This document shows, piece by piece, positions 3,315 through 48,608 of a stretch of DNA of 64,000 nucleotides (positions within the stretch are counted from its first letter, which is position 1; each line of letters starts with the position of its first letter). The translations under genes were made by a program, and so were the position numbers. The notes beneath the pieces are model-generated. The model was given only the letters and a program-made list of their open reading frames with translations, was not told the DNA's origin and did no database searches. This DNA comes from Ancylobacter lacus (GTDB lineage Bacteria > Pseudomonadota > Alphaproteobacteria > Rhizobiales > Xanthobacteraceae), in contig NZ_JAHBGE010000001.1 in the NCBI RefSeq assembly GCF_018390635.1, forward strand, positions 1-64,000. Direction: 5' to 3'.

Positions 3315-3539
3315 ATGTCATCCGCACCCGGGCCCAAGCCTTCGCGCGTGAAGGTAGGTGAGCATCGCGCGCGATTGCGGGCCCAGGGGCTTCGGCCGAT
3401 CCAGATCTGGGTGCCGGATGTACGGGCACCCGCCTTCCGGGCGGAAGCGCGGCGCCAGGCGCTGGCCGTCGCATCGAGCGCGCCGGCCGCCGATGATCAG
3501 GCCTTCATCGATGCCGTGTCCGACTGGGGCGACGAATGA
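3315..3539 (+). CDS. MazE-like antitoxin (DUF3018 family)
   Basis: A 74-aa protein with RxxxLRAQGLRPIQIWVPD at residues about 18-36, the signature of the short MazE/DUF3018 antitoxins of proteobacteria. The basic N-terminal half is probably DNA binding. The acidic C-terminal tail (DDQAFIDAVSDWGDE) would neutralise the toxin. The ATG is preceded by GAGGAGG and a palindromic operator. Its stop overlaps the next ATG (ATGA), the usual coupling to mazF. The partner toxin is broken here, so this is an antitoxin without a working cognate toxin. Confidence 0.8.
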   Translation: MSSAPGPKPSRVKVGEHRARLRAQGLRPIQIWVPDVRAPAFRAEARRQALAVASSAPAADDQAFIDAVSDWGDE

Positions 3540-3643
3540 GGCGCGGCGACGTGTGGACCGTTGCCGGAGGGCAGGACTACGCCGGAAAGCCGCGCCCGGT
3601 GGTCATTGTGCAGGACGACAGTTTCGATGGAACGGACTCCCTC
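3536..3643 (+). pseudogene. MazF-like toxin, N-terminal 36 codons only, fused to recombinase
   Basis: Begins MRRGDVWTVAGGQDYAGKPR, a typical start for a MazF/PemK-type mRNA interferase (RGDVW, then GKPRPVVIVQ). The homology stops at about residue 36 (GTDSL). After this the same frame continues without interruption as the middle of a large serine recombinase. The catalytic and dimer regions of MazF downstream of the beta1-beta2 hairpin are lost. The fused open frame runs 3536-3907. A toxin activity is not expected. Confidence 0.75.
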
Positions 3644-5038
3644 AGCCGCTTCTTCCGCGATCATTTCGAGCTGGAATTCTACGTCCGCAAGCTGGCGAAG
3701 AACGGCGTGAAGCTCGTCTCGATCACGCAGGAAATGGGCGACGACCCCATGCACGTCATGGTGCGGCAGATCATGGCGCTGTTCGACGAGTATCAGTCGA
3801 ATGAGAACGCCAAGCATGTGATGCGGGCCTTGAAGGAGAATGCCCGGCAAGGCTTCTGGAACGGCGCCCTGCCACCCATCGGCTATCGCATCGTCGCGGC
3901 CGAGTAGCGCGGGGCGGAGACCAAGAAGAAGCTGGAGATCGACCCGCTCCACGCCGAGACCGTGCGGCTTATCTATCAGCTCGCCCTTGAAGGCGACGGC
4001 ACCACCGGGCAGATGGGCGTCAAGAACATCGTCTCGTACCTCAACAAGCGGCGCATCTTCACCCGCGACGATGGGCGCTGGGGCATCGGGCAGGTTCACC
4101 GCATCCTGACCCGCCGCACCTATATGGGCGAACATGAGTTCAACAAGCGGTCCAAGACTAAGGAGCTGAAGCCGGTCAGCGAGATCGTTGTTGTGCCGGT
4201 GCCGCCGATCATCAGCCGCGAGACCTTCGACACCGTGCAGGCGCTCCTCAAGGCGCGACATCCCAGGGTGACACCATCCGCCGTGATCAGCGGCCCGACC
4301 ATGCTCACAGGCCTGATCCATTGCGCCAAGTGCGGCGGCGCGATGACCATCCGCACCGGCAAAGGTGGACGCTACCGTTACTACGCCTGCTCCATGAAGG
4401 CGCGGCAGGGGCCGACCGCCTGTACCGGCATGGCAGTGCCGATGGAAAAGCTGGACGATCTTGTCGCCAGCCATCTGGAGGAACGCCTGCTCCAGCCGGA
4501 GCGGCTGGAAACGATTCTCGCCACAGTGCTCGACCGGCGGCAGGAGCGGTTCGAGCGCCAGCGCGAGCATATCGCCGAGTTGAACAGGCGTGCAGCCGAG
4601 TCTGAAGCCCGCCTCAGGCGGCTTTATGACGCCATAGAGGCCGGCGTCGCCGATCTGGACGACCCAGCGCTAAAGGACCGCATCGTCGGCCTGAAAGCCA
4701 TCCGCGATCAGGCCAAGGCTGACGCCGAACGCGCCCAGGCATTGCTCCAGAACGCCGGAAGCAAGGCCGTCACGCCGGAGATGTTGAGCAAATCCGCCAA
4801 AGCCGCGCGTCAGCGCATCCGCCTAGACGGCGGGGGCTATCGCCGCGACCATCTCCGCGCGCTTGCCCAGCGCGTCGAGGTTGCCGAGGGTGAGGTCCGG
4901 ATCATGGGATCGAAATCCCGGCTACTCCAGACGCTGGTATCGGGCGATGGCGTAAACGCAGTGCCCACTCAGGGACCGAAATGGCGGAGACGGAGGGATT
5001 CGAACCCTCGAGACCCTTTTGGGGGTCTGCTCATTTAG
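3644..5038 (+). pseudogene. Large serine recombinase, headless and interrupted by an amber codon
   Basis: From about 3644 the frame encodes the end of a serine-resolvase catalytic domain (KNGVKLVSITQEMGDDPMH) but lacks the N-terminal part with the catalytic serine, replaced by the MazF start. At 3905-3907 a TAG stops the frame (GYRIVAAE-stop-RGAETKKKLEID). The same frame then continues through the Recombinase domain, a zinc ribbon (HCAKCGG, then YYACSMKARQGPTACTG) and a long coiled coil (about 4540-4760). Relatives normally have Gln at the stop, so one CAG-to-TAG change explains it. The frame reads on antisense through the tRNA-Ser gene and ends at 5038. An internal start near 3962 could make a C-terminal fragment without catalytic function. 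This was probably the integrase of the island. Confidence 0.85.
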
Positions 5039-5073
5039 CAAACGAGTGCCTTCAGCCTCTCGGCCACGTCTCC
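4982..5073 (-). tRNA. tRNA-Ser(GCT)
   Basis: The minus strand gives a 92-nt type II tRNA starting GGAGACG, with acceptor partner CGTCTCC, discriminator G and encoded CCA (complement of 4982-4984). It has the anticodon loop TTGCTAA (anticodon GCT), a long variable arm (AGACCCCCAAAAGGGTCT) and the T-arm GGTTCGAATCC. The 3' end faces the recombinase and island remnant, as expected for an element integrated at a tRNA 3' end. Confidence 0.97.
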
Positions 5074-5449: not shown

Positions 5450-6913
5450 ATGACGACGTCCGCCCCGCTCCCGCTCAAGGACCCCGATCTCCTGCGCAGC
5501 CAGTGCTTCATCGGCGGGAGCTGGCGGGGAGGGCCGGGCTTCGACGTCACCAACCCCGCCACCGGCGCGGTGATCGGACAGGTGCCGCTGTTCGGCGCGG
5601 CGGAAACCACCGAGGCGGTCGACGCGGCGGAGCGGGCCTTCCGCCCCTGGGCCGCAAAGACCGCCAAGGAGCGCTCGGCGCTGCTGCGGCGCTGGTTCGA
5701 CCTCATCATCGCCAACCGCGACGATCTCGCCCTGATCCTCACCTCGGAGCAGGGCAAGCCGCTCGCCGAGGCGCGCGGGGAAATCGACTATGCCGCCTCC
5801 TATGTCGAGTTCTATGCCGAGGAGGCCAAGCGGATCGCCGGCGAGACCCTGCCGAGCCACCGCGCCGACGCCCGCATCCTCGTGCTGCGCCAGGCGACCG
5901 GGGTGGTTGCCGCCATCACCCCCTGGAACTTCCCGGCCGCGATGATCACGCGGAAGGTCGCGCCCGCGCTCGCCGCCGGCTGCCCGGCGGTGGTGAAGCC
6001 GGCGGAGGATACCCCGCTCACCGCGCTGGCGCTGGCGGTGCTGGCGGAGCGCGCGGGGCTGCCGGCCGGCACGTTGAGCGTCATCACCGGCGACGCTCCG
6101 GCCATTGGCGGCGTGCTCACCTCGCACCCGGCGGTGCGGGTGGTGAGCTTCACCGGCTCGACCGAGGTCGGCAAGCTGCTGATGCGCCAATGCTCGACCA
6201 CGGTGAAGAAGGTGGCGCTGGAGCTGGGCGGCAACGCGCCCTTCCTGGTGTTCGACGACGCCGACCTCGATGCCGCGGTGGAGGGGGCGATGGTCTCCAA
6301 GTTCCGCAATATGGGGCAGACCTGCGTCTGCGCGAATCGCATCTATGTGCAGGCGGGCATCCACGACGCTTTCGTCGAAAGGCTGGCGGAGGCGGTGGGG
6401 CGGCTGAAGCTCGGCATCGGCACCGAGGACGGGGTGACCCAGGGGCCGCTGATCAACCAGCAGGCCATCGAGAAGGTCGAGGCGCACCTCGCCGACGCCA
6501 CCGCGAAGGGCGCCACCATCGTGCGCGGCGGCGCCCGCTCGGCGCTCGGCGGGACCTTCTTCGAGCCGACGGTGCTGGCCGGGGTGACCTCCGACATGGT
6601 GGTGACGCGCGAGGAGACCTTCGGCCCCATCGCGCCGGTGTTCCGGTTCGAGACCGAGGAAGAGGCGGTCGCGGCGGCCAACGCCACCGAATTCGGCCTC
6701 GCCGCCTATTTCTTCACCCGGGACGTCGGCCGGGTGTTCCGGGTCGCCGAGTCGCTGGATTACGGCATCGTCGGGATCAACTCCGGGCTGATCTCCACCG
6801 AGCTGGCGCCGTTCGGCGGCGTGAAGGAGAGCGGGTTCGGCCGCGAAGGCTCGCACCACGGCATCGACGAGTTCGTCGAGAAGAAATACGTGCTGGTGGC
6901 CGGCCTGCGCTGA
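5450..6913 (+). CDS. gabD: NAD(P)-dependent succinate-semialdehyde dehydrogenase
   Basis: A 487-aa cytosolic aldehyde dehydrogenase, the normal length for GabD. Catalytic residues are in place: Glu258 in ELGGNAPF and the nucleophile Cys292 in GQTCVCANR, the class signature of SSADH. The fold starts at FIGGSW and NPATGAVIG. The ATG at 5450 is chosen because family homology starts here and upstream codons are filler. It oxidises succinate semialdehyde to succinate, the last step of GABA catabolism. It neighbours a putative arginine-to-4-guanidinobutyrate-to-GABA operon (8704-13641) and would finish that pathway. An intrinsic terminator follows at 6948, so it is transcribed separately from oxlT. 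No gabT transaminase is in the window. Confidence 0.93.
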   Translation: MTTSAPLPLKDPDLLRSQCFIGGSWRGGPGFDVTNPATGAVIGQVPLFGAAETTEAVDAAERAFRPWAAKTAKERSALLRRWFDLIIANRDDLALILTSEQGKPLAEARGEIDYAASYVEFYAEEAKRIAGETLPSHRADARILVLRQATGVVAAITPWNFPAAMITRKVAPALAAGCPAVVKPAEDTPLTALALAVLAERAGLPAGTLSVITGDAPAIGGVLTSHPAVRVVSFTGSTEVGKLLMRQCSTTVKKVALELGGNAPFLVFDDADLDAAVEGAMVSKFRNMGQTCVCANRIYVQAGIHDAFVERLAEAVGRLKLGIGTEDGVTQGPLINQQAIEKVEAHLADATAKGATIVRGGARSALGGTFFEPTVLAGVTSDMVVTREETFGPIAPVFRFETEEEAVAAANATEFGLAAYFFTRDVGRVFRVAESLDYGIVGINSGLISTELAPFGGVKESGFGREGSHHGIDEFVEKKYVLVAGLR

Positions 6914-6947
6914 AGGTCTTTCCCAAGGTCATTTCGCCGTCTGCATC

Positions 6948-6977
6948 GGGGCCCCGCGCATATCGGGGCCCCTTTTT
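6948..6977 (+). terminator. Intrinsic terminator after gabD
   Basis: GGGGCCCC at 6948-6955, a loop of nine bases, GGGGCCCC at 6965-6972, then TTTTT. This is a strong GC stem with a U tract, 35 bp after the gabD stop. Confidence 0.88.
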
Positions 6978-7396
6978 CGTTTGTACGCCCCCCGCCTCCC
7001 TCTTCGGAAGGTGATGCCATCGCTGCGTCAGGCGGCATCAAACTCCCAGATGTGCGCTAAAGAGTACTTCAGGAAATGGCGCGTTGTTTTAAGTAAATCA
7101 TATATGACGTTCGGTAATGAAGGTTGACCCAGCGGAAATTGTGGGGTTGAGACGGCTGATATTGATCGGTTTTTAAAACGTGATATTTGTAGACCGTATA
7201 AGGTGTACCACCGAAATGACGCCTGTCTGACTTCCCGAACGTCATGTTTCTTCAGGTATTGCTGCCTTTGCGATAGCCATACCTGCCGTTGGGGTAAGAG
7301 CGGCGTCGTCGCGGCGGTCGCCACGGCGGCCAGCCGCCATTCATTTCCGAAGCAGCCACATCAAGAGCTGCGGGACCCATCAAGGCGAGGAACGAG
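6978..7396. other. A/T-rich intergenic region upstream of oxlT
   Basis: About 420 bp. The 7050-7260 part is clearly more A/T-rich than the surroundings and probably carries the oxlT promoter. The best guess is TTGATC at 7162-7167 with TATTTG at 7184-7189 (16-bp spacing). An open frame at 7028-7324 on the minus strand has no family resemblance and was left out. Confidence 0.4.
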
Positions 7397-8728
7397 ATGA
7401 CCAAGACCGATAACGCCACACAATTGACCGTGCGCCCGTGGGAACCCTGGGTGCAGCTCGCCTGCGGCATCGTCTGCATGGCGATGATCGCGAACCTCCA
7501 GTATGGCTGGACGCTGTTCGTCGATCCGATCGACCAGGCGCATGGCTGGGGCCGCGCCGCCATTCAGCTTGCCTTCACCATCTTCGTCGTCACCGAGACC
7601 TGGCTGGTCCCGGTCGAGGCGTGGTTCGTCGACAAGTACGGCCCGCGGGTCGTCATCATGTTCGGCGCGGTCATGATCACCCTGTCCTGGGTCGTCAATT
7701 CCTATGCCGACTCGCTCACCATGCTCTATGCGGGCGCGGTGCTGGGCGGCATCGGCGCCGGCTCCGTCTACGGCACCTGCGTCGGTAACGCGCTGAAGTG
7801 GTTCCCCTACCGCCGCGGCCTCGCCGCCGGCGCCACCGCCGCCGGCTTCGGCGCCGGCGCGGCGCTCACCGTGGTGCCGATCGCCGCGATGATCGCCAGC
7901 CATGGTTACGAGACCGCCTTTTTCCGCTTCGGCATCGGCCAGGGCGTCATCGTCTTCGTGCTCGCCCTGTTCCTCTACCCGCCGAAGCTGAAGATCGCCG
8001 CGCCTAAGAAGGCGTCGCACCTGCCGCAGAGCAAGATCGACTACAAGCCGTCCGAGACCATCACCAAGCCGGTGTTCTGGCTGCTCTACCTCATGTTCGT
8101 GATGGTCGCTTCCGGCGGCCTGATGGCGGCGGCGCAGATCGCCCCGATCGCCAAGGACCTCGGCGTCGCCAACCAGCAGGTCAACATCCTCGGCCTCCAG
8201 GCCGTGGCGCTGACGCTCGCCATCTCGCTCGACCGCATCTTCGACGGTTTCGGCCGGCCCCTCTTCGGCTTCATCTCGGACCGCATCGGCCGCGAGAACA
8301 CCATGTTCATCGCGTTCGGCACGGCGGCGGCCATGCTGCTGCTGCTGGTCTACCACGGCAGCAACCCGGTCGTGTTCGTGCTCGCCACCGCCTGCTTCTT
8401 CGGCGTGTTCGGCGAGATCTACAGCCTGTTCCCCGCCACCAGCGGTGACACCTTCGGCTCCAAGTTCGCCGCCACCAATGCCGGCATGCTCTACACCGCC
8501 AAGGGCACCGCGGCGCTGCTGGTGCCGCTCGCCGGCGTCGTCGCCTCGAACTATGGCTGGTACGCGGTGTTCGCGATCGCGGTGGCCTTCAACGCGACGG
8601 CGGCTTTCCTCGCCCTGTTCGTGCTGAAGCCGGTGCGCGCCGCGCACATCGCCCGCTCGGCCGCCGCTGCGGAAAAGACCGTCGGCACGGTCGGCGGCAA
8701 GGTTCAGTCCGGCAGCGCCATCGGCTGA
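7397..8728 (+). CDS. oxlT: MFS oxalate/formate antiporter OxlT-type
   Basis: A 443-aa inner-membrane protein with about 12 predicted helices. The opening VRPWEPWVQLACGIVCMAMI and the helix LQYGWTLFVDPI are typical of the oxalate:formate antiporter (OxlT) branch of the major facilitator family. A loop GPRVVIMFGA and a later DRIGREN match MFS loop motifs. In the best known case it exchanges oxalate for formate to make proton-motive force, but no formyl-CoA:oxalate transferase or oxalyl-CoA decarboxylase gene is nearby, so the real substrate may be another carboxylate. The start has a good ribosome site (AAGGCGAGGAACGAG). Its 3' end overlaps the convergent monooxygenase gene by 25 bp. Confidence 0.85.
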   Translation: MTKTDNATQLTVRPWEPWVQLACGIVCMAMIANLQYGWTLFVDPIDQAHGWGRAAIQLAFTIFVVTETWLVPVEAWFVDKYGPRVVIMFGAVMITLSWVVNSYADSLTMLYAGAVLGGIGAGSVYGTCVGNALKWFPYRRGLAAGATAAGFGAGAALTVVPIAAMIASHGYETAFFRFGIGQGVIVFVLALFLYPPKLKIAAPKKASHLPQSKIDYKPSETITKPVFWLLYLMFVMVASGGLMAAAQIAPIAKDLGVANQQVNILGLQAVALTLAISLDRIFDGFGRPLFGFISDRIGRENTMFIAFGTAAAMLLLLVYHGSNPVVFVLATACFFGVFGEIYSLFPATSGDTFGSKFAATNAGMLYTAKGTAALLVPLAGVVASNYGWYAVFAIAVAFNATAAFLALFVLKPVRAAHIARSAAAAEKTVGTVGGKVQSGSAIG

Positions 8729-10398
8729 CGATCGTCCCACACATCGCCCGGCCCCGGATTTTCCGGGGCCGTGGCACCTCCGAAGTGCCTGACGATACCC
8801 CACACCGCATTCAGCGCGGTGGTGACGGCGCCCTCGGCCCAGCCCGCGGTCCAGGAAATGTCGTCCCCGGCGAGGAAGATGCCGCGATGTTCCGGCGCCA
8901 TGTCCTCCTGCCGGAAATGCGCGAAGAGCCGCCGCTGATAGCGGTAATGGCCGGGCAGGTTGCCCTTGAACGCCCCCATGAAATTCGGATCGCTTTCCCA
9001 CGAGACGGTTATCGGCTCGCCGACGATGTGCGCGCGGATGTCCAGCCCGGGATAGATCTGCCGCAGGCTGTGCAGCGCCAGACGCACCCGCTCCTCCGCC
9101 GGGAGCGACATCCACTTCATCGCGTCGTCCTCCCAGGCGTAGGACAGGCAGATGACCCCCGGCCGGCCCTCGCCGTGATCGATGAGATAGGTGCCGCGGG
9201 TGATGCGGTCCGAGAGGGTGAGGCTGAAGACGTGCCGCCCCGTCGCCGGGTCGATGTCGCGCCAGAACGGCCGGTCCACCATGATGAAGGTCTTGGACGC
9301 CTGCATGTAGTGCGAGCGTTCCATCGCCATCCACATGGACGGGGGAAACAGCCGCTCGGCGCAGTCGATCCGCGCCGAGAGCAGCCAGGTCTGGCAGGTC
9401 ACCAGCACCGCGTCGAAGGTGGCGGTGCGGCCCCAGCGGTCGGTGACGGCGAGGCGACCGTCGGGCGCGCGGTCGATGGCGGCAACGCCGGGGCGCGGCG
9501 CGCCGCCATTCAGCGCCGCAAGGCTGGTTCCGGCGGGCCAGTGCACGCAGCGGGCGGGCGCCCGGCTCCAGAGCCGGGCCGGCAACTGCCCGACGCCGCC
9601 TTCGACCAGGCGATGCCCGGCGTCGGCATCGGTATAGACGACGCGCAGGATCTCCAGCATCGAGTTGGGGAAATCGGTGTCCCAGCCGCCGGTGCCGAAG
9701 CCGACCTGGCCGAACACCTCGCGATGGCGGAAGCTGCGGGTGCGGAATGCCTGCGAGCGGGCGATGAAGCCGTAGAAGCTCTCCTCGTCGAGGATCGGCA
9801 CCAGCCGGTTCCAGATCGCCTTGATGGCGCCGACGTCGCGGCGGCGGATGGCGGCCTGCATGCGGGCGAAATCGGCGCCGTACTCCAGCGCCTCCGCCCA
9901 GGCGTCCGCCACCTCGCGGAACAGCGCCGGCAGGTCGGCAAGGGTGCGGGCGTAATGGGCCTCGCCACCGAGTTCGATCACCGTGCTCGGCGTGGCCGGC
10001 GACAGCGGGTTGGGGAAGGGGCGGGTGGTGAGGCCCGCCTCGCGCAGATAGTAGGCGAAAGCGGTCGCCGAGGGCGGAAAGCGCATCGCGCCCAGTTCGG
10101 CGATGGTTTCCGGCGAGGAGCGGAACGGCTCGGAGCGCAGCCGTCCGCCGATCCGGTCGGCCTCGTAGACCACCGGCCGCAGGCCGAGCTTCATCAGTTC
10201 CTGCGCCGCCACCAGCCCGGCGATGCCCGCCCCGACCACGGCGATCTCGCGGCCATGCGCGGCGGCCGGCAGCCGGCCGAGGCCGGCGGGGTGCGCGAGA
10301 TGGTCGTCATAGGCGAACGGAAAATCCGGCCCGAACATGGTGATGGAGGGCTCACCGGCGCCCGGCTCCGCGGGCAACGCGTCGGCTGGAGAGGGCAT
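8704..10398 (-). CDS. FAD-dependent L-amino-acid 2-monooxygenase (arginine/lysine/tryptophan type)
   Basis: A 564-aa flavin amine oxidase. It has the dinucleotide-binding VVGAGIAGL (residues 54-62) with the acidic strand end VVYEADRIGGR, a central R-rich arginine-contact segment (ELGAMRFPPS), and the C-terminal FAD motif FLAGDDISWTAGWAEGA. Length and layout match the IaaM/DavB group, which decarboxylate an L-amino acid oxidatively to an amide one carbon shorter. Fourth gene of the minus-strand operon with a ureohydrolase and a nitrilase-type amidase. That company favours arginine as substrate (product 4-guanidinobutyramide) over lysine (DavB) or tryptophan (IaaM); this is inference. The ATG at 10398 is chosen over an upstream frame without homology. 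Confidence 0.78.
   Translation of the reverse strand: MPSPADALPAEPGAGEPSITMFGPDFPFAYDDHLAHPAGLGRLPAAAHGREIAVVGAGIAGLVAAQELMKLGLRPVVYEADRIGGRLRSEPFRSSPETIAELGAMRFPPSATAFAYYLREAGLTTRPFPNPLSPATPSTVIELGGEAHYARTLADLPALFREVADAWAEALEYGADFARMQAAIRRRDVGAIKAIWNRLVPILDEESFYGFIARSQAFRTRSFRHREVFGQVGFGTGGWDTDFPNSMLEILRVVYTDADAGHRLVEGGVGQLPARLWSRAPARCVHWPAGTSLAALNGGAPRPGVAAIDRAPDGRLAVTDRWGRTATFDAVLVTCQTWLLSARIDCAERLFPPSMWMAMERSHYMQASKTFIMVDRPFWRDIDPATGRHVFSLTLSDRITRGTYLIDHGEGRPGVICLSYAWEDDAMKWMSLPAEERVRLALHSLRQIYPGLDIRAHIVGEPITVSWESDPNFMGAFKGNLPGHYRYQRRLFAHFRQEDMAPEHRGIFLAGDDISWTAGWAEGAVTTALNAVWGIVRHFGGATAPENPGPGDVWDDRQPMALPD
8749..8771. repeat. 10-bp hairpin at the convergent oxlT/monooxygenase ends
   Basis: CGGCCCCGGA at 8749-8758, loop TTT, then the exact complement at 8762-8771. 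It lies 20 bp past the oxlT stop but inside the coding end of the opposing gene. It could terminate oxlT transcripts, though no T tract follows. Confidence 0.4.
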
Positions 10399-10424
10399 GG
10401 CGGCTCCGGGCGGCGGAAGGTTTC

Positions 10425-11741
10425 TCAGGTCGAGGGCATGACGGGTCGCGGCGCCGTGGCCTGCGGGGCCGGTGAGCCGCAGCACAGGCTGTTGCGGCCC
10501 TCCGCCTTGGCCCGGTAGAGCGCATCGTCGGCGCGGGCGAAAAGGCTGGCGGCATCTTCCTGCGGGCGTGGCACGACACAGCCGATGCTCAGGGTGACGA
10601 TGATCCGGTGGCCGCCGACTTCCACCGGGGTGGCGGCGAGGGCCGTCAGCAGGCGGCGGCCCACCCGCTCGGCCTCGGTCTCGTTCATGTCCGGCAGCAG
10701 CACGGCGAATTCCTCGCCGCCGATCCGGGCGAGGAGGTCTGCCTGCCGTAGCTGGCGCCGGCAGCGGGCGGCAACCGCGCGCAGCACTTCATCCCCGCTC
10801 AGGTGGCCGAAACGGTCGTTGATGGCCTTGAAGTGATCGATGTCGATCAGCAGCAGCCCGAAACCACGTCCCCACTGGCTGAAGGCGTCGAGCGCGAGGG
10901 CGACGTCTTCCTCGAAGCGGCGGCGGTTCCACAGGCCGGTCAAGGGATCGGAGACGGCGAGGTGGCGCAGCTCCCGCTCGGTCTCGCGCTGGCTCGTGAC
11001 GTCCCACAGCGCGAGGACGTAGTAAGGGCCGATCCAGCGATAGCGGAACTGCACCGTGCGCCGGCTGCCGTCGCGGCAGCGCACCGACCACTCGCTGAAC
11101 TGAACCCGGCCGGCCTCCCGCCGCGCCGCCTGCAGCTTGGCCAGCCATTCGGCGTGGGCGGCGGCGCGCTCGGCCGGGTCGGGAAAGCCGAACTCCCACC
11201 AGTCGTCGTGATGGAGGATGGGCCGCTCCGGGTACAGGAACAGCTCGTCCGACATCTTGTTGTAGAGCACGCCCTTCAGCTCGGAATCGTAGATCTCGAT
11301 GCCGACCGGGAAATGGTCGAGGATTTCGACGAGGTTCTCCTGCAGCGAGCGGGCGATCTCGGCGCGCAGGGTGAGGACGTAGTCCCCCTGGGGCAGCCGG
11401 CCGAGACTGACATGCACCAGCCGTGTCGCAGCCTCGCCGTGCAGGTGCAGGAACAGCCCGTGCCACCTCTCCGCGATGGCGGAGGCGATCGCGGCCTCCG
11501 CGTGAGGGGGATCGACCAGCGCCACGAGGGCGGCGAGCGGCTGCGGCAGCTCCGCCTCCAGGTCGATGCCGAGAAGGTCGCGACCGCGCTGGTTCGCCGC
11601 CACGGCTAGCAGGTCGGACCCGCGCAGGATGAGCAGCGGGGCGTCGATCGCGTGGACCCAGTCATACATATCGCCATATTGCGGGCGCTGCTGCTTGATG
11701 TCGATCTGGTTTCGGCCGGCGCATGCCGTGCCAAATGTCAC
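10425..11741 (-). CDS. Diguanylate cyclase with PAS-like sensor
   Basis: A 438-aa protein from a GTG at 11741 that overlaps the amidase stop (GTGA); an ATG at 11669 (MYDWVHAID) is an alternative. Residues about 25-130 and 130-255 look like two PAS-type modules, the second ending in LWDVTSQRETERELRHL, a typical PAS-to-GGDEF linker. The GGDEF domain spans about 262-420 with an intact GGEEF active site at 341-345 and an RQAD inhibitory site (RxxD) five residues before it, so product feedback is expected. There are no membrane helices. It should make cyclic di-GMP. Its place between amidase and monooxygenase in a catabolic operon, with translational coupling, is unusual and suggests that substrate use is linked to motility or biofilm behaviour. 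Confidence 0.9.
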   Translation of the reverse strand: MTFGTACAGRNQIDIKQQRPQYGDMYDWVHAIDAPLLILRGSDLLAVAANQRGRDLLGIDLEAELPQPLAALVALVDPPHAEAAIASAIAERWHGLFLHLHGEAATRLVHVSLGRLPQGDYVLTLRAEIARSLQENLVEILDHFPVGIEIYDSELKGVLYNKMSDELFLYPERPILHHDDWWEFGFPDPAERAAAHAEWLAKLQAARREAGRVQFSEWSVRCRDGSRRTVQFRYRWIGPYYVLALWDVTSQRETERELRHLAVSDPLTGLWNRRRFEEDVALALDAFSQWGRGFGLLLIDIDHFKAINDRFGHLSGDEVLRAVAARCRRQLRQADLLARIGGEEFAVLLPDMNETEAERVGRRLLTALAATPVEVGGHRIIVTLSIGCVVPRPQEDAASLFARADDALYRAKAEGRNSLCCGSPAPQATAPRPVMPST

Positions 11742-12583
11742 GCCGCCGTAGTGTGCCGGGCGGAAGCGGCGTTCGCCAGCGGCCCGTAAAGGTCGGGGCG
11801 GCGGTCGGCGAGATAGGTGTTGAAGCGCCGGGCCGCCTCCAGCGCGCCACGGCTCAGCTCGGCGACGATCATCTCCTCGCCCTCGCCGGCCAGCGCCACA
11901 TTGACACCGGAAGGGCCGCCAACGCAGCTCAGGCCGAGATAGTCGAGCGCGCCTTCGCGGCCCACCCGATTGGCGTAGGCGACATAGACGCTGTTCTCGA
12001 AGGCCCGCGCCGGCACCACGAGATGGGAGACCCGCTCATGCGGCTTCATGTTGGCGGTGGGCACGATGACGAGGTCGGCACCGGCCAGCGCGAGGCTCCG
12101 CACCGCTTCGGGATGCTCGACATCGTAGCAGATCAGGAGCCCGACCCTGAAAGCGCCCAGCTGCGCGAGGCGGCCGATCTCCTGCCCCGGCGCGAACATC
12201 GAGCGGTCGAGCTCGGCGAAGAGGTGCGTCTTGCGGTAGTTGAGGAGCAGGGTGCCGTCGGCCCCGACCAGCACGGCGGCGTTGTAGACGGCGCCGTCAC
12301 CGCCACGCTCGGGGTAGCCATAGGCGAGGGCGATGCCGTGGCGGCGGGCGATCTGGGCCGCCCGGCGGAAGGCCGGCCCCTCCGCGGGTTCGGCCCCGCG
12401 CGCGGCGGCCTCCCGGCCGATGGCGTAGCCGGAGAGGAACATCTCCGGCGCGACGAGAAGCCCCGCTCCCGCTGCGGCGGCACCGGCGGCCGCGGCCTCC
12501 AGCCGGTCCAGATTGGCGGCGGCGTCGTTGCCGGGGTCGCCGGCGGTCTGCCACAGGGCAATACGGAGCGTCTCGTCGGCCAT
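11738..12583 (-). CDS. Carbon-nitrogen hydrolase (nitrilase family), putative 4-guanidinobutyramide amidase
   Basis: A 281-aa enzyme with the Glu-Lys-Cys triad visible: Glu47 (VAPEMFLSG), Lys118 (NYRKTHLF) and Cys152 (LICYDVEHPE). It belongs with short-chain amide hydrolases such as DavA (5-aminovaleramidase). In this operon, after an amino-acid 2-monooxygenase and with a ureohydrolase, the likely reaction is hydrolysis of 4-guanidinobutyramide to 4-guanidinobutyrate plus ammonia; the exact substrate is inference. The ATG lies 2 bp after the ureohydrolase stop. The stop overlaps the cyclase GTG. The DavA substrate 5-aminovaleramide is the main alternative. Confidence 0.85.
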   Translation of the reverse strand: MADETLRIALWQTAGDPGNDAAANLDRLEAAAAGAAAAGAGLLVAPEMFLSGYAIGREAAARGAEPAEGPAFRRAAQIARRHGIALAYGYPERGGDGAVYNAAVLVGADGTLLLNYRKTHLFAELDRSMFAPGQEIGRLAQLGAFRVGLLICYDVEHPEAVRSLALAGADLVIVPTANMKPHERVSHLVVPARAFENSVYVAYANRVGREGALDYLGLSCVGGPSGVNVALAGEGEEMIVAELSRGALEAARRFNTYLADRRPDLYGPLANAASARHTTAA

Positions 12584-12585
12584 GG

Positions 12586-13641
12586 TCAGCTTCCCCGGCG
12601 TGCCTTGAGGGCGGTCACCGACATGCAGAAGATCTCGAACAGCACCTGCGCCGCGGCATGGGCGGTGTTGCTGGTCGGGTCGTACTGGGGGGCAACCTCC
12701 ACGACGTCGCCGCCGATCACGTTCAGCCCGTTGAGCCCGCGCAGAATCTCCAGCACCTCGCGCGAGGTGAGGCCGCCGATTTCCGGCGTGCCGGTGCCGG
12801 GGGCGAAGGCGGGATCGAGGCTGTCGACGTCGAAGGAGACATAGACCGGCCCGTCGCCGAGAACCTCGCGGGCCTTGGCGATGATCGCGGGCACCCCGAG
12901 GCCGGTGACCTCCTCGGCATGGATCACGGTCATGCCGGTCTCATAGGAGAACTCCCACAGGAATTCGGCGCCGCCGCGAATGCCGATCTGAATGGTCCGC
13001 TCGGGGTCGAGCACGCCGTCCAGCACGGCTTTGCGGAACGGGCCGCCATGGTGGAACTTGGAGCCTTCGTAGTCGCCGCTGGTGTCGCAATGGGCGTCGA
13101 TGTGGAGCATGCCGACCGGCTTCGTCTCGCCGATCGCCTTCAGGATCGAGCCGGTGATGGAATGGTCGCCGCCGACGGCGATCGGCACCACGCCGGCCTC
13201 TACCACCTTCTTGAAGAAGGCCTCGATATCCTCGTGGCAGCTCTCCAGGCTGAACCGGCTGCGGAACGGCAGGTCGCCGATATCCGCCACCGCCACCTCG
13301 GCTGCCGGCACCATGTTCAGCACATGCTCATAGGGGCCGATGCGCTCGATGGCGCGGACCGCGCGCGGCCCGAGCCGGGCTCCGGCGCGGTTGGTGACGC
13401 CGAGGTCCATCGGCACCCCGATCAGCGCCACGTCCAGCCCGCCGAAGTCCGGGAGATCGGCGGCGTCGGGGCGGTAGGGCGCGTCCAGCAGCGTCGCGGC
13501 ATTGGCCCAGGGCCATACGCGCCGGCCGCCATCCTTGAACTGGAGTTCGGCTACCCGCTTGAACGTCGGGTCGAACACCACACCGCCCGGAACCCCGGCA
13601 TATTTGCCGCGGATCTTCGCGAGCTTCTCATCGTCCCACAT
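12586..13641 (-). CDS. Ureohydrolase (agmatinase family), putative guanidinobutyrase
   Basis: A 351-aa arginase/agmatinase-fold enzyme with all Mn ligands visible: His160 in GGDHS, Asp182/His184/Asp186 in DAHCD, Asp271/Asp273 in SFDVDSLDP. The long N-terminus and the FHHGGPFRKAVLDGVLDP segment resemble guanidinobutyrase and guanidinopropionase more than short agmatinases. Expected reaction: 4-guanidinobutyrate to 4-aminobutyrate plus urea. First gene of the operon with amidase, diguanylate cyclase and 2-monooxygenase. The GABA formed could be finished by a transaminase (not in the window) and by GabD at 5450. Agmatine is the alternative substrate. Confidence 0.85.
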   Translation of the reverse strand: MWDDEKLAKIRGKYAGVPGGVVFDPTFKRVAELQFKDGGRRVWPWANAATLLDAPYRPDAADLPDFGGLDVALIGVPMDLGVTNRAGARLGPRAVRAIERIGPYEHVLNMVPAAEVAVADIGDLPFRSRFSLESCHEDIEAFFKKVVEAGVVPIAVGGDHSITGSILKAIGETKPVGMLHIDAHCDTSGDYEGSKFHHGGPFRKAVLDGVLDPERTIQIGIRGGAEFLWEFSYETGMTVIHAEEVTGLGVPAIIAKAREVLGDGPVYVSFDVDSLDPAFAPGTGTPEIGGLTSREVLEILRGLNGLNVIGGDVVEVAPQYDPTSNTAHAAAQVLFEIFCMSVTALKARRGS

Positions 13642-14309: not shown

Positions 14310-15542
14310 CTACTCCTCCCGTGGCGCACGGCAGGACAGCGCCGCGGCCAGCCAGAAGCCCAGCGCCAGCAGCACGGTCCCCGCCGTGAGCACGAGCAGC
14401 ACGGCCTCATAGGACCCGCTCATCGACCACAGCATGGCCGCCGCCAGCGGCGCCAGCGCCCGCGACACCGAGGCGGGCGCGGCGATGATGCCGTTCACGG
14501 CGCCATAGGCCCGGGTCGTCAGCATCTCCGGCACGGCGAGGCCGCGCACGATCGTCATGATGCCGTTCGCCGCGCCATACAGCACGGCCACCCCCCCGAC
14601 CAGCACGAACAGCCGTGGCCCTTCCGCCAGCGCTAGCATCACCAGGGGAAATACGACGACGGTGACCGAGCCGATCAACCGCACCGAGGCGCGCGGCGCC
14701 AGCACCCAGATCGCGACGCGCCCCGCCACCTGCGCCGGCCCCACCACCGCCATCGCGGTGACGACGCCTGCGGGATCGAAGCCGCGCTCGCCGAGCAGGG
14801 GATAGAGGTGGAAGGTGAAGGCGGAGAACATGGCGGAATACGCCGTGAAGGTGACGGCGAGCGCCCAGAACACCGGCTGGCCGAGTGCCCAGCGCACCAC
14901 GGACGCGTCGCTCCGCGGCGCTTCACCCTCTGCCGGGGCCGGCGAGGGCTGGTCGAGCCGTGGGTCGATGGTGAGGGCGTTCAGCACGGCGCAGATCAGG
15001 ATATTGACAAGGCCGAGCCCGATCAGCGCGCCCCGCCAGCCGACATGATCGACCAGCATCTGAACCACCGGGACGAACACGGTGGAGGCAAAGCCCCCCC
15101 ACAGGGTCAGGGCGGTGATGCCGGCGCGGGCATGGCGCGCGCCGGAACGCCGCGCCACCACGGCGAAGGCGGGATCATAAAGCGTCGTGGCCTGCAGCAG
15201 CCCGACCCCCGCCGCGCAGCCATAGAACAGCGCGAGGCTGCCGGCCTGCGACCACACCAGCAGCAGGAGCCCGGCCAGCAGCGAGCCGCCGGTCATCACC
15301 AGCCGTCCATGGCCACGGTCGATGGCCGTTCCGACGGGATAGGCGGCGATGCCGGCGAGGGCGAGGCCGACGGTGGCCGCGCCGTACAGCTCGGTCTTCG
15401 ACCAGCCGAGATCGAGCCGCATGGCTTCGGCGATGAGGGGGAAGCTGTAGTAGAGCGAGCCCCACGAACCGATCTGGGCGATGCCGAGACCGGTGATGAA
15501 CAGGCTGTGCGGGCGCGGGGCGGTGTGGTCGGTCATGGGCAA
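14310..15542 (-). CDS. MFS transporter
   Basis: A 410-aa inner-membrane protein with about 12 helices, a short central loop (DPRLDQPSPAPAEGEAPRS, residues about 193-211) and the N-half motif DRGHGRLVMTGG between helices 2 and 3. It starts MPMTDHTAPRPHSLFITGLG; an ATG two codons later is equally possible. The YxSF-type first helices resemble monocarboxylate/oxalate-like MFS permeases, but the substrate cannot be read from sequence. It stands alone, with no enzyme genes coupled to it. Confidence 0.85.
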   Translation of the reverse strand: MPMTDHTAPRPHSLFITGLGIAQIGSWGSLYYSFPLIAEAMRLDLGWSKTELYGAATVGLALAGIAAYPVGTAIDRGHGRLVMTGGSLLAGLLLLVWSQAGSLALFYGCAAGVGLLQATTLYDPAFAVVARRSGARHARAGITALTLWGGFASTVFVPVVQMLVDHVGWRGALIGLGLVNILICAVLNALTIDPRLDQPSPAPAEGEAPRSDASVVRWALGQPVFWALAVTFTAYSAMFSAFTFHLYPLLGERGFDPAGVVTAMAVVGPAQVAGRVAIWVLAPRASVRLIGSVTVVVFPLVMLALAEGPRLFVLVGGVAVLYGAANGIMTIVRGLAVPEMLTTRAYGAVNGIIAAPASVSRALAPLAAAMLWSMSGSYEAVLLVLTAGTVLLALGFWLAAALSCRAPREE

Positions 15543-16933: not shown

Positions 16934-18133
16934 TCAGCTCGGCGAAGCCTGTGGGACGAGGGTGCCGATCCCCTCGATCTCGATCTCAAGGCCGGTGAGG
17001 CCGAGGCGCGCCAGCGGCACGAGGGTGAGAGCGGGAAGTCCTGCCGGGAAGAACGGCGTTATTTCTTTCAGCACGCGGGTGATGTCGTCGTCTCCGCCTT
17101 CCGTGGCAATGAAGACGGTCACCTTTGCGAGGTCGCCAATCCCGGCGCCGAATCCGGCGAGAATGCGGTCGATCCACTCCATCGTGTTGCGCGCCTGGGC
17201 GGCGAGATCGCCGGGGTAGACCGCTTCTCCCCGCGGATTGGCGCAGATCTGGCCCCCGAGGATGAGCAGGTCGTTGATCTTCAGGCCCTGCTCGAACGAC
17301 ACCGGAACCGGCCAGTCCCATATCCCTTCCGGCCAGCTTGTGTCGCGAGGGGCGGCGAGTCCCTCCGGCGTCGCGACACCGATCGCTTCCTGCCGGAGCA
17401 GCAGGCCGCCGGGATAGGGACCGGGAACCGGCACACCGGTCGCGCCGGGCCCCGGCTTGCGGAACGCGTCGGAACGGACCCGCGCCGCCATGGTCCAGTC
17501 TTCCGTGGTGCCGTGCCCGACATAATAGGTGTTGAGCTTCGCGACGCAGGAGAGGTCGGCGCCAAGGCCGCCGAGCGCCGCACCGATATGGCCGATCGTC
17601 ACCCGGGCCTGCCCGACGATGTCGCCCTCGTGCAGCGTGGCTCCCGCCTCGTCCCGCGACATCTGTGCCCCCACGAAGACGAGATCACCGGCGCGGATCG
17701 CCGCGCTGAACCCGGGTTCATGGCACGCGGCCGACGCGGGTGCGGCCTCGCGGCGAGCGTTCCGGGCGCCGTGCGGATGAAGCGCGATGGCTTCGATCTG
17801 AACGAGCGCGCCGCCCACCAGCGTATGCAGCGGGATCGCGGTGACGACCGGCCGCGGATCGGCCGGGAAGGCGGCGCCGATGCGGGCCAGGATGGCCGGT
17901 TCGCTGGCGATCAGCGAGCGGTGGTAGAACACGCCGAGCTTGACGACATCGGCCACCGTCGCGCCCGCCTCGGACAGGGCGGCGACGACCCCGGCGACCG
18001 CCTGATCGATCTGGTCCTCCAGCCCGTCCCCCGCCGTGCCAAGCTGCGCCGACACGAACACGATGTCCTGCGCGCGGCTGTGCGGTCGGGCACCCAGGTC
18101 GTGGGGCGAGCGATAGCGGGAGGTGAGCGTCAT
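16934..18133 (-). CDS. Protein with three tandem RidA/YjgF-like domains
   Basis: A 399-aa protein, three times the length of a normal RidA (about 130 aa). Three modules are visible. Module 1 is about residues 5-118 (IVFVSAQLG, then VVKLGVFYH and PLHTLVGGALVQIEAIAL). Module 2 is about 135-260 (DLVFVGAQM, then VAKLNTYYVG and RQEAIGVATP). Module 3 is about 275-395 (DLLILGGQI, then LAKVTVFIA and ARLGLTGLEIEIEGIGTL). RidA proteins hydrolyse reactive enamine/imine intermediates such as 2-aminoacrylate using a conserved Arg. No clear catalytic Arg in the canonical CVEA-type setting is visible, so these may be RidA-subfamily variants. It is divergent from ggt. The ATG at 18133 is chosen because homology starts there. 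Confidence 0.8.
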   Translation of the reverse strand: MTLTSRYRSPHDLGARPHSRAQDIVFVSAQLGTAGDGLEDQIDQAVAGVVAALSEAGATVADVVKLGVFYHRSLIASEPAILARIGAAFPADPRPVVTAIPLHTLVGGALVQIEAIALHPHGARNARREAAPASAACHEPGFSAAIRAGDLVFVGAQMSRDEAGATLHEGDIVGQARVTIGHIGAALGGLGADLSCVAKLNTYYVGHGTTEDWTMAARVRSDAFRKPGPGATGVPVPGPYPGGLLLRQEAIGVATPEGLAAPRDTSWPEGIWDWPVPVSFEQGLKINDLLILGGQICANPRGEAVYPGDLAAQARNTMEWIDRILAGFGAGIGDLAKVTVFIATEGGDDDITRVLKEITPFFPAGLPALTLVPLARLGLTGLEIEIEGIGTLVPQASPS

Positions 18134-18206
18134 GTGCGGGGGCCTGTCGCTGTGGGGCAGGGGGCGGTGGCGCCGCCACTGCCGGGAAGGCTGCAGCATA
18201 GACAGG

Positions 18207-32279: not shown

Positions 32280-33188
32280 ATGCTGCCCTCCCACAACCGC
32301 TTCGCCTACTCGCCCATCACCGCACGGCCGGATTTCACCTGGCCCGGCGGCAAGCGTCTCGCCGTCTATGTCGCGCTGTGCGTCGAGCACTTTTCCTATG
32401 GCTCCGGGCTCGGCCTCGCCTATTCGCCGGGGCTCAGCCATCCCAATTCCTACAACTGGGGCTGGCGCGAATATGGCAACCGGGTCGGGGGATGGCGGCT
32501 GATCGAGCTGTTCGAGGAATACGGCCTGCCACTGACCGTGCTCCTCAACAGCGCCTGCTACGATCACTGCCCCGAGCTGATCGCCGCTCATCGCCGGCGC
32601 GGCGATGAGATCGTCGCTCACGGGCGCACCAACTCGGAGCATCCGAACGGCATGGACGAGGCGACCGAGCGCGCCGCCATCGCCGAGGTGACGGCGCGCA
32701 TCCGCAAGGAGGAGGGCGCCCCTCCCGCCGGCTGGATGAGCCCCGGCGCCCACCCGAGCGCCCGTACCGAGGACCTGCTGGCAGCGGCCGGCTACGGCTA
32801 CACGCTGGACTGGCCGATCGACGACCAGCCGGTCTGGATGAGGACGGCTGCCGGTCCGCTGCTCGCCATGCCGTACCCGCACGAGGTCAACGACGTGCCG
32901 ATGGTGGTTCTGCACGACGGCACCGCCACCGCCTTCGCCGACATGGCGATCGACAATCTGGAGGAGATGCTGGCGCAGTCGGAGCGGCAGCCTCTCGTCT
33001 TCGGCATCACCATCCACACCTTCATCGTCGGCCAGCCCTTCCGCATCCGCCAGTTCCGCCGGGTGATGGAGGCGCTCGCCCGCCATCGCGAGCGCATCTG
33101 GTTCACCACCGCGGGCGGCTGTGCCCGGCACTATGCGTCGCTCTTCCCGGCACCCGAGACGTTCCCTGTTCAAGGCTCGCAGACATGA
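32280..33188 (+). CDS. Polysaccharide deacetylase-fold hydrolase (PuuE/imidase-like)
   Basis: A 302-aa protein of the NodB/polysaccharide deacetylase superfamily, without a signal peptide. The fold is seen in LTVLLNSACYDHCPELIAAH, the zinc-type HGRTNSEH and a late HDGT. The N-terminal RFAYSPITARPDFTWPGGKR resembles the allantoinase/PuuE and cyclic imide hydrolase group rather than chitin deacetylases. It probably opens a cyclic amide or imide or removes an acyl group in the cytoplasm. Its stop overlaps the next start. Confidence 0.78.
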   Translation: MLPSHNRFAYSPITARPDFTWPGGKRLAVYVALCVEHFSYGSGLGLAYSPGLSHPNSYNWGWREYGNRVGGWRLIELFEEYGLPLTVLLNSACYDHCPELIAAHRRRGDEIVAHGRTNSEHPNGMDEATERAAIAEVTARIRKEEGAPPAGWMSPGAHPSARTEDLLAAAGYGYTLDWPIDDQPVWMRTAAGPLLAMPYPHEVNDVPMVVLHDGTATAFADMAIDNLEEMLAQSERQPLVFGITIHTFIVGQPFRIRQFRRVMEALARHRERIWFTTAGGCARHYASLFPAPETFPVQGSQT

Positions 33189-34045
33189 GTTTCACCCAAG
33201 CCGATCCGGCTTCCATCTCGCCGGTGTCCGGGGCACGCCGTGGCGTGCACCGCATCGCCATCGCGGGTCTCGGCGCCGTGGGCCATCGCGTGGCCCGCGC
33301 CCTGGACGAGGGTCTGCCGGGTTGCCGGCTGGTCGCCGTCTCCGCCCATGACCGGGCGCGAGCGGCCGAGCGCCTTGCCGATCTCCGGCGCCCGGTGCCC
33401 GTCGTGGCCATCGAGGAGCTGGAGGGCCTTGCCGATATCGTGGTCGAATGCGCCCCGGCCGCCCTGCTCCCGGCCATCGCCGGGCCCTTCCTGAAGGCGG
33501 GCAAGACGGTGATCGTGCTGTCGTCCGGGGCGATCCTCGCCCATCAGGATCTTGTGGAGCTGGCCCGCGAGCATGGCGGGCAGATCGTCGTCCCAACCGG
33601 GGCGCTGCTCGGTCTCGATGCGGTGACGGCGGCAGCCGAGGGGGACATACGCTCGGTCCGCATGGTGACGCGAAAGCCGGTGAAGGGTCTCGTCGGCGCG
33701 CCCTATCTGGTGGAGCGCGACATCTCCATCGACAACATCACCGAGCCGGTCTGCGTCTTCGACGGCACGCCGCGGGAGGCGGCCATCGGCTTTCCCGCCA
33801 ATCTCAACGTCGCGGTGGCGCTGGCGCTCGCGGGCATCGGACCCGATCGCACCCGGCTGCAGATCTGGGCCGATCCGGCGCTTACCCGCAACACCCACAC
33901 CATCGAGGTCGATGCGGACTCCGCCAGTTTCTCGATGTCGATTGCCAATGTGCCGACGGAAAACCCCAAGACCGGGCGCATCACCGCGCTGTCCGTCATT
34001 TCCTACCTTCGTAAGCTCGACGCGCCGCTGCGGGTGGGTTCGTAG
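33185..34045 (+). CDS. Aspartate dehydrogenase-like oxidoreductase
   Basis: A 286-aa NAD(P)-binding protein with the dinucleotide site IAGLGAVGHRVARAL at about residues 25-39. The aspartate dehydrogenase (NadX) family pattern is clear: PSGALLGLD-like PTGALLGLDAVTAAAEGDIR, FPANLNVAVALALAGIGPDR and NTHTIEVDADSASFSMSIAN with the catalytic-region His. NadX converts aspartate to iminoaspartate/oxaloacetate. Here it is not with nadA or nadC but in a catabolic operon, so it likely deaminates an amino-acid intermediate. The start overlaps the hydrolase stop (ATGA). Confidence 0.82.
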   Translation: MSFTQADPASISPVSGARRGVHRIAIAGLGAVGHRVARALDEGLPGCRLVAVSAHDRARAAERLADLRRPVPVVAIEELEGLADIVVECAPAALLPAIAGPFLKAGKTVIVLSSGAILAHQDLVELAREHGGQIVVPTGALLGLDAVTAAAEGDIRSVRMVTRKPVKGLVGAPYLVERDISIDNITEPVCVFDGTPREAAIGFPANLNVAVALALAGIGPDRTRLQIWADPALTRNTHTIEVDADSASFSMSIANVPTENPKTGRITALSVISYLRKLDAPLRVGS

Positions 34046-34057
34046 AAAGTCATTCCG

Positions 34058-34843
34058 ATGGATCTGGAACTGAAGGAGCGCACCGCGCTGGTTCTCGGCG
34101 CGGGCGGCGGGCTGGGGCGCGCCATCGCGCGGACCCTGGCGCGCGAGGGAGCGAGGGTGGCGCTGGTCGACATCGACGCCGATGCGCTGGCCCTTACCGA
34201 GGCCGAACTGGCGGCACTGGGGGCGAAGTCGCACACCCGGGTGTGGGATCTCGCCGACATCGCCGCGTGCGAGGGGCATGTCGCGTCCATCGAGGCCGCC
34301 CTCGGGCCGGTCGATATCCTCGTCAACAATACCGGCGGGCCGCCGCCGAGCGCCGCGCACGGGGTGGCGCCGACGGTGTGGGAGGGACAGTTCCGCGCCA
34401 TGGTTCTGTCGGTGATCCATCTCACTGATCGGGTGCTGCCGGGCATGCGCGAGCGCGGATGGGGCAGGGTCATAACCTCGACGTCCTCTGGCGTGATTGC
34501 CCCCATTCCCAATCTCGGCGTGTCCAACGCCCTGCGCGCCAGCCTGGTCGGCTGGTCGAAGACGCTGGCGCGGGAGGTGGCCCGGGACGGCGTCACCGCC
34601 AACGTGATCCTGCCCGGCCGCATCGCCACCGCCCGCATCCGCTTTCTCGACGAGCAGAAGGCGAAGCGCGAAGGGCGGAGCCTCGAGGCCGTCGTGGCCG
34701 AGAGCACGGCCTCCATCCCGATGGGGCGCTACGGCCTGCCGGAGGAATATGCCGACGCCGTCGCCTTCCTCGCCAGCGCCCGCGCCGCCTACATCACCGG
34801 ATCGGTGATCCGCGTCGACGGTGGCTATCTCCCCAATATCTGA
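34058..34843 (+). CDS. Short-chain dehydrogenase/reductase
   Basis: A 261-aa SDR with cofactor site VLGAGGGLGRAIA (residues 12-24), NNTGGPPP in place of NNAG, and a C-terminal YITGSVIRVDGGYLPNI. The usual catalytic YxxxK is not obvious: after ITSTSSGVIAPIPNLGVSN the expected Tyr position reads N/V, so it may be the variant subgroup related to 3-oxoacyl reductase-like proteins with altered catalysis. It lies within the operon, 12 bp after the previous gene. Confidence 0.85.
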   Translation: MDLELKERTALVLGAGGGLGRAIARTLAREGARVALVDIDADALALTEAELAALGAKSHTRVWDLADIAACEGHVASIEAALGPVDILVNNTGGPPPSAAHGVAPTVWEGQFRAMVLSVIHLTDRVLPGMRERGWGRVITSTSSGVIAPIPNLGVSNALRASLVGWSKTLAREVARDGVTANVILPGRIATARIRFLDEQKAKREGRSLEAVVAESTASIPMGRYGLPEEYADAVAFLASARAAYITGSVIRVDGGYLPNI

Positions 34844-34859
34844 TCGAGCGAGACCGCAC

Positions 34860-35576: not shown

Positions 35577-35589
35577 GCCCCTCAATTCT

Positions 35590-35620: not shown

Positions 35621-35642
35621 GCCTCGCCACCCGGAGCCGATC

Positions 35643-48508: not shown

Positions 48509-48555
48509 GTCGGAATCCTCGCGCGCCCGGGCGCGTCGAATGGGAAGAAGGGAGG

Positions 48556-48593: not shown

Positions 48594-48608
48594 CAGTGGT
48601 CGGGAGAC

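Follow-up and report, generated by a model that had tools for sequence, protein, structure and literature searches.

The DNA analyzed here, hereafter the window, is a stretch of 64,000 nucleotides from Ancylobacter lacus (contig NZ_JAHBGE010000001.1, positions 1 to 64,000), and it carries a minus-strand gene cluster that we discuss as a candidate arginine 2-monooxygenase operon (Table 1). An earlier sequence-only reading had described three genes on this strand, encoding a ureohydrolase, a nitrilase-family amidase and a flavin adenine dinucleotide (FAD)-dependent 2-monooxygenase. All three proved complete, and a fourth gene that had been overlooked, encoding a PAS-PAS-GGDEF protein, stands between the last two, giving the order ureohydrolase, nitrilase, PAS-PAS-GGDEF protein and monooxygenase. 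The ureohydrolase and nitrilase genes are separated by 2 bp, and from spacing and strand we infer that the four genes form one transcript. A GTG at 11741 offers a possible longer start of the cyclase gene, and the 3′ end of the monooxygenase gene overlaps by 25 bp the convergent gene of an antiporter. The presence of gabD, also noted previously, was confirmed at 1.8 kb from the 3′ end of the operon, with the antiporter gene in between. Rfam models at gathering thresholds detected only tRNA between window positions 3000 and 24000, with no guanidine riboswitch or other RNA element; a promoter scan returned no sigma-70-like site, and terminator predictions were below chance.

Table 1. Genes of the candidate operon and its flank, in window coordinates.
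Feature	Coordinates	Strand	Description
SpeB2/guanidinobutyrase-like ureohydrolase	12586..13641	-	351 aa, complete; Pfam Arginase 298.5 bits
Nitrilase-family amidase	11738..12583	-	281 aa, complete; CN_hydrolase 169.6 bits; candidate 4-guanidinobutyramide hydrolase
PAS-PAS-GGDEF diguanylate cyclase	10425..11669	-	414 aa, ATG at 11669; GGEEF and RxxD
FAD L-amino acid 2-monooxygenase (amine oxidase family), H-type pocket	8704..10398	-	564 aa, complete; Amino_oxidase 185.2 bits; candidate arginine 2-monooxygenase
Oxalate/formate-type major facilitator superfamily (MFS) antiporter	7397..8728	+	TIGR04259 612.5 bits vs cut-off 335; no pathway role claimed
GabD, succinate-semialdehyde dehydrogenase	about 5450..6913	+	TIGR01780 707 bits vs cut-off 646; plausible last step

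Comparison of the monooxygenase with solved structures yielded 844 bits for the Lys/Orn/Arg oxidase/monooxygenase of Pseudomonas sp. AIU 813 and 206 bits for tryptophan 2-monooxygenase, on which ground the tryptophan identity was rejected. Lys, Orn and Arg are all substrates of the AIU 813 enzyme, which can work on each as a monooxygenase or as an oxidase (PMC5832979); its monooxygenase kcat/Km values are 74 for Lys, 200 for Orn and 24 for Arg per s and mM, arginine (kcat 1.6/s, Km 0.067 mM) being a poorer substrate than the other two. In that enzyme Asp238 binds the positive end of the side chain, and Trp235 and Ala515 give the pocket its shape, with Ala515 replaced by Gly in enzymes for larger amino acids. 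In this numbering, the window monooxygenase keeps Arg102, Trp235, Asp238, Tyr416, Trp418, Phe473 and Trp516 and has Gly in place of Ala515; it shows the anchoring Arg and Tyr, the aromatic cage and the acidic pocket ceiling of an FAD 2-monooxygenase of the amine-oxidase fold. Across 128 non-redundant relatives the anchoring residues are invariant and neighboring pocket positions co-vary, with His (38 sequences) or Gln (90) at position 258, Asp (38) at 420, Ala (38) or Pro (90) at 514, and Gly (41) or Ala (87) at 515. The window enzyme bears H258/D420/A514/G515 (HDAG, here H-type) and not Q258/S420/P514/A515 (QSPA, here Q-type), the pocket found in the structure alignment for the AIU 813 enzyme and in the Pseudomonas loci presented. 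In a set of 121 loci taken with longer flanks, 29 were H-type (28 HDAG and one HDGG) and 92 were Q-type (83 QSPA and nine near variants); since four of these variants carry Gly515, that residue alone was dropped as a marker.

The Q-type clade of the monooxygenase trees, all unrooted, contains the Pseudomonas copies, which we take to be DavB-type, in part from their adjoining nitrilase, the characterized DavB itself not being among the sequences. This clade comprised 30 rows in a 68-row quick tree (SH-aLRT, a Shimodaira–Hasegawa-like likelihood ratio test, 100), 30 rows in a more careful 50-row tree (100/100) and 24 rows in a 49-row tree (100/100), and the window enzyme lay outside it each time, nested within it in none of the three. 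Its neighbor was instead Geminicoccus, with supports of 91/85 and 91/73 in the 50-row and 49-row trees, respectively. Grouping with lysine or tryptophan enzymes had been set in advance as the outcome that would speak against an arginine enzyme; the result favored arginine, the DavB-type clade closing without the window protein in all three trees. Two copies with a stop each (L018 and L011) were excluded from the trees, the copy of genome G311, with one reported stop, was used as its aligned segment, and structure 3WE0 was read in the alignment and is absent from the trees.

The nitrilase triad Glu47-Lys118-Cys152, put forward by the sequence-only reading, is exact and is kept in 43/43 aligned nitrilases. 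In a 43-row quick tree, which lacks the copy of locus L201, 13 nitrilases linked to Q-type monooxygenases, including all six Pseudomonas rows, group together (SH-aLRT 91). The window nitrilase falls outside this group as sister to the nitrilase of G1091, a genome of the same genus (SH-aLRT 100), its deeper position not being settled by the tree; the nitrilase of L126 is Q-type-linked yet also lies outside. Diguanylate cyclases are marked by a GG(D/E)EF motif and an RxxD site, and the product of the third gene has both, as GGEEF and R308..D311. Near full-length relatives of this cyclase (47-58% identity) occur in 9 of 24 other genomes of the genus, and 11 of the 24 have a match at E 1e-40. Flanks of up to 1.5 kb were viewed for seven of the nine relatives: that of G1091 lies in the same operon, and the other six have no operon genes nearby. 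A sensory or regulatory role of the cyclase in the pathway is our guess.

The ureohydrolase has the metal-ligand motifs of its family (H160, D182, H184, D186, D271 and D273). Among solved structures it matched 3-guanidinopropionase (279 bits) and guanidinobutyrase (248 bits) better than agmatinases (at most 207.4 bits), which bears out its description as guanidinobutyrase-like insofar as guanidino-acid hydrolases are nearer than agmatinases; its place, however, is in a SpeB2-like branch and not with GbuA itself. An agmatinase or arginase identity was set aside on these weaker structure matches, though the NCBIfam agmatinase model does pass. A gene of Sinorhizobium meliloti Ak57 (L257) encodes a protein with 67% identity to the window ureohydrolase over 350 aa and the same metal-ligand motifs, and is followed by genes for a binding protein, an ATPase and two permeases. 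By synteny it is most likely SpeB2, as in S. meliloti SMc01967 is speB2 and SMc01963-66 encode a spermidine/putrescine transporter (PMC2912261). SpeB2 is reported to be active on 4-guanidinobutanoate (PMC7268258) and, unlike the window ureohydrolase, neighbors a PotABCD-like ATP-binding cassette (ABC) transporter, not a monooxygenase.

Ureohydrolase relatives (E ≤1e-110) were found in 28 of 385 genomes of the class and the monooxygenase in 10. Treating both draws as the same genomes, five have both genes (hypergeometric 2.8e-4), which are adjacent in three (the window genome G000, G464 and G560), and 23 of the 28 have no monooxygenase. Such monooxygenase-free ureohydrolase genes adjoin a 2-ketoarginine decarboxylase gene in L198 (731 bits) and L201 (664 bits), and a PotABCD-like transporter in L203 and L205-L208. 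Locus L201 (G338, 9488-12923) combines ureohydrolase, nitrilase and 2-ketoarginine decarboxylase genes with no monooxygenase and belongs to the same genus as G464 and G560, which have one. Locus L208 (G297, 6366-10570) has both a GbuA-like gene (72% identity to the Geminicoccus copy) and a SpeB2-like one, separated by about 2 kb that include a LysR-type gene, and this side-by-side occurrence suggests that the two branches may differ in substrate. On a plasmid of Azospirillum sp. B510 (L258, 8001-17047), a SpeB2-like gene and an ABC transporter adjoin genes for a putative urea transporter, an allophanate hydrolase and a urea carboxylase, which would be a fitting urea sink. The window genome (4.6 Mb) has seven ureohydrolase-family matches, and its other ureohydrolases could share the work.

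The sequence-only reading had reasoned that a DavB-type lysine pathway would not need a ureohydrolase, and the neighborhoods agree: a ureohydrolase gene lies within 5 kb in 0/92 Q-type loci vs 9/29 H-type loci (Fisher 8.9e-7), and, after removal of Pseudomonas, in 0/22 vs 9/29 (p 0.0065), p-values that ignore relatedness and how the loci were picked. The 121 loci are a non-random draw, in which 70 of the 92 Q-type loci are Pseudomonas, from the best 80 of at least 573 relatives; 20 actinomycete stretches were hand-picked from 65 positive genomes, and plasmids are represented by 3 of 11 records. L023, L088 and L235 have one short flank each, and the count includes L018, with its stop, and the frameshifted L123, in two pieces. 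Among the nine linked H-type loci, L125 and L231 are near-identical and L114 and L115 come from the same genus. A single clade of the linked rows (six H-type rows in the 50-row tree) was rejected by the approximately unbiased (AU) test (p 1.5e-32), at least four changes are needed, and the partners come from two branches, SpeB2-like and GbuA-like; the association therefore appears to have more than one origin.

The closest relatives found among the matches listed adjoin genes for a guanidinobutyrase and a γ-aminobutyrate (GABA) transaminase, or for a 2-ketoarginine decarboxylase. In Geminicoccus flavidas (L023), a ureohydrolase gene (490 bits to the guanidinobutyrase 3NIO of P. aeruginosa, next best 321) is followed by a monooxygenase gene (74% identity to that of the window) and a GABA transaminase gene (562 vs cut-off 506.65 bits); the contig starts at the ureohydrolase, and an upstream nitrilase would not be visible. 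The clusters of G464 (L114) and G560 (L115), with 73% identity for the monooxygenase and 67% for the ureohydrolase, contain in order a PotABCD-like ABC transporter, the ureohydrolase (followed in L114 by a zinc alcohol dehydrogenase), the nitrilase, the monooxygenase and, directly 3′ of it, a thiamine enzyme that passes the NCBIfam model for 5-guanidino-2-oxopentanoate (2-ketoarginine) decarboxylase (702 bits in L115 and 696 in L114, cut-off 500). The second monooxygenase of G464 (L116) is Q-type and has no ureohydrolase or nitrilase within 5 kb. A Tsukamurella plasmid (NZ_LR134452) carries speB, an amino acid permease, a nitrilase and the monooxygenase, and the actinomycete G810 (L218) a nitrilase, the monooxygenase, a ureohydrolase, a thiamine enzyme (335 bits, under the decarboxylase cut-off) and two aldehyde dehydrogenases; that stretch breaks off just after a GABA-transaminase-like gene begins.

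Additionally, in the actinomycete G754 (L232, 6368-18581) an H-type monooxygenase is encoded together with a nitrilase, an AMP-binding coenzyme A (CoA) ligase and a modular polyketide synthase. In the published Streptomyces genes for arginine starter units (EC 1.13.12.1; PMC5082578, PMC8944477 and PMC10322714), the same decarboxylating monooxygenase and amide hydrolase lead to 4-guanidinobutyrate, and with a CoA ligase they form the set for arginine-derived 4-guanidinobutyryl-CoA. Because the L232 genes match this set, an enzyme of the same pocket class as that of the window sits where arginine is the published substrate; L232, a candidate arginine-primed polyketide cluster, represents the Streptomyces arginine monooxygenases by context. 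The window differs from the starter-unit set in having a ureohydrolase in place of the CoA ligase, so that its route looks catabolic, and in having a diguanylate cyclase in addition.

Taken with the tree and the pocket, these neighborhoods make it likely that the operon encodes an arginine 2-monooxygenase route, as the sequence-only reading had proposed. The biochemistry of the arginine 2-monooxygenase pathway was described decades ago. In the window, the FAD monooxygenase would convert L-arginine and O2 into 4-guanidinobutyramide, CO2 and H2O, the nitrilase would hydrolyze the amide to 4-guanidinobutyrate and NH3, and the ureohydrolase would release GABA and urea, after which GABA could be taken to succinate by an aminotransferase whose gene lies elsewhere and then by GabD, encoded close to the operon, while the PAS-GGDEF protein probably tunes cyclic di-GMP (c-di-GMP) to the state of the pathway. 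What the sequence itself shows is the enzyme families, the catalytic motifs, the layout of the operon, the pocket class and the conserved associations, and the substrates in this scheme and the part given to the cyclase are inferred. The proximity of gabD was dropped as evidence for arginine, as GabD fits a lysine or an arginine pathway. The arginine transaminase pathway (AruI and GbuA) also converges on 4-guanidinobutyrate and GABA, and an AruI-like gene is found in the operons of G464 and G560; in the window, by contrast, the first step is assigned to an oxygenase, and no AruI-like protein exceeded the cut-off in the genome.

Several observations weigh against the arginine route. The pocket class changes once on the tree and provides one independent pair, and the Gly515 substitution also occurs in the four Q-type loci mentioned above. 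Forcing the window enzyme to join the DavB-type clade cost 13.85 log units and was not rejected by the AU test (p 0.109), so the window enzyme may still be sister to that clade. No ureohydrolase lies within 5 kb in 20 of the 29 H-type loci, including 15 of 18 H-type actinomycete stretches as well as the next closest relatives among the matches listed, an Acidiphilium metagenome-assembled genome (MAG; 70%), a proteobacterial MAG (69%), Nocardioides (69%) and Pimelobacter (67%), these four all having the nitrilase. The window ureohydrolase scores above the cut-off of the NCBIfam agmatinase model (197.6 vs 174.3), as does the GbuA-like protein of Geminicoccus (216 vs 174.3). No protein of the genome exceeded the TIGR00700 cut-off for GABA transaminase (506.65 bits; two aminotransferases came to 225, the best score, and 206), a strict threshold that just 3 of 14 control genomes reached, and the step from GABA onward is thus unaccounted for. 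Finally, the monooxygenase is present in one of 30 genomes of the genus, and G1091 has none, at the locus or elsewhere in the genome at E 1e-40.

The plainest competitor is a lysine pathway of the DavB/DavA type, from lysine through 5-aminovaleramide to 5-aminovalerate, with an unrelated ureohydrolase. The window enzyme shares the FAD family, the anchoring residues and the nitrilase partner with DavB/DavA and the AIU 813 enzyme (3WE0, 5YB6-8), its nitrilase is 47-54% identical to those adjoining Pseudomonas monooxygenases, GabD could serve glutarate semialdehyde, and the ureohydrolase-nitrilase pair occurs without a monooxygenase in G1091. The position outside the DavB-type clade, the H-type instead of the Q/S/P/A pocket, the nitrilase outside the 13-row group and a ureohydrolase partner, seen beside none of the 92 Q-type loci, all speak against it, and on tree, pocket and context we disfavor a plain DavB/DavA operon as improbable. 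A broad basic-amino-acid monooxygenase/oxidase that takes Arg, Orn and Lys, with an oxidase side reaction to 2-ketoarginine, overlaps with the arginine route and deserves more credit, while still being rather unlikely. The two-mode AIU 813 enzyme (PMC5832979) and the decarboxylase gene right after the monooxygenase in G464 and G560 would suit it; in the window genome, by contrast, thiamine enzymes reach at most 285 bits against the cut-off of 500 for 2-ketoarginine decarboxylase, and the dedicated ureohydrolase points to a guanidino substrate. We hold as unlikely, and more so than such a broad enzyme, the bolder proposal that H-type enzymes are a subfamily of arginine oxidases/monooxygenases defined by substrate, with two catabolic branches meeting at 4-guanidinobutyrate, the amide through the nitrilase and the keto acid through 2-ketoarginine decarboxylase, the second branch being absent in the window, where the PAS cyclase would sense a pathway metabolite and couple arginine nitrogen to c-di-GMP.

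A proposal compatible with the arginine route, to which we give somewhat less than an even chance, is that ureohydrolase, nitrilase and GGDEF protein form an older unit, acting on a guanidino-amide or a polyamine-related compound, which the monooxygenase joined recently as a feeder. In G1091 the synteny extends over gabD (86%), the antiporter (89%), the GGDEF gene (58%), the nitrilase (73%) and the ureohydrolase (90%); since this operon is kept without the monooxygenase, the nitrilase and the ureohydrolase may serve a purpose independent of it. The rarity of the monooxygenase in the genus, the 23 class genomes with a SpeB2-type ureohydrolase alone (if both draws are the same genomes) and the ureohydrolase and ABC transporter genes with a distant nitrilase in L203 and L205-L208 fit the same proposal. 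Loss in G1091 could also explain its gap, and no insertion scar was recognized by eye at the monooxygenase junctions. Between a loss in G1091 and a gain by the older unit in the window lineage, rarity in the genus favors gain, in which case the nitrilase has, or had, another amide substrate.

Beyond the operon, other features of the window were recorded. At 3536-5073, a tRNA-Ser gene (4982-5073) adjoins a site-specific recombinase that is split over two frames (3536-3907 and 3962-5038). The tRNA-Ser stretch is kept in G1091 (94% over 173 bases) and the interval from tRNA to gabD is unaligned, a pattern suggestive of an integration site; the first recombinase piece starts, as judged by eye only, like a MazF/PemK protein, and a type I restriction-modification specificity domain (1366-2742) lies near. 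On the other side, an MFS transporter gene (14310-15542) adjoins the operon; G077, of the same genus, has three relatives that share 73-75% DNA identity with it. The neighbors of a gene for a single protein with three RidA/YjgF (Ribonuc_L-PSP) stretches (16934-18160) are a gamma-glutamyltransferase-like gene and an amino acid ABC transporter. Farther along, an aspartate-dehydrogenase-like gene lies near an amidase-like gene (33185-36971), and an L-threonate dehydrogenase model scores above its cut-off (453 vs 350) at 47534-48682.

The pathway and the enzyme families are known, and the cluster, marked by its pocket signature and its cyclase, is a new variation on them. Among the open-licence papers listed, no title or displayed abstract reports a catabolic cluster of these genes, and older or subscription work may exist; the enzyme itself is named in several papers, such as PMC10224408 and PMC3290608. 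Pseudomonas lysine enzymes tend to be misannotated as tryptophan ones (PMC12462448), and the contrast of H/D/A/G and Q/S/P/A pockets could serve as a simple rule to separate arginine from lysine monooxygenases, an aid in a family with unreliable annotation. Where sister clusters include a 2-ketoarginine decarboxylase, both products of a two-mode enzyme may be salvaged. In PMC5082578, PMC8944477 and PMC10322714, the genes of the arginine route are placed in polyketide starter-unit supply, and the window cluster and its relatives would add catabolic genes to them.

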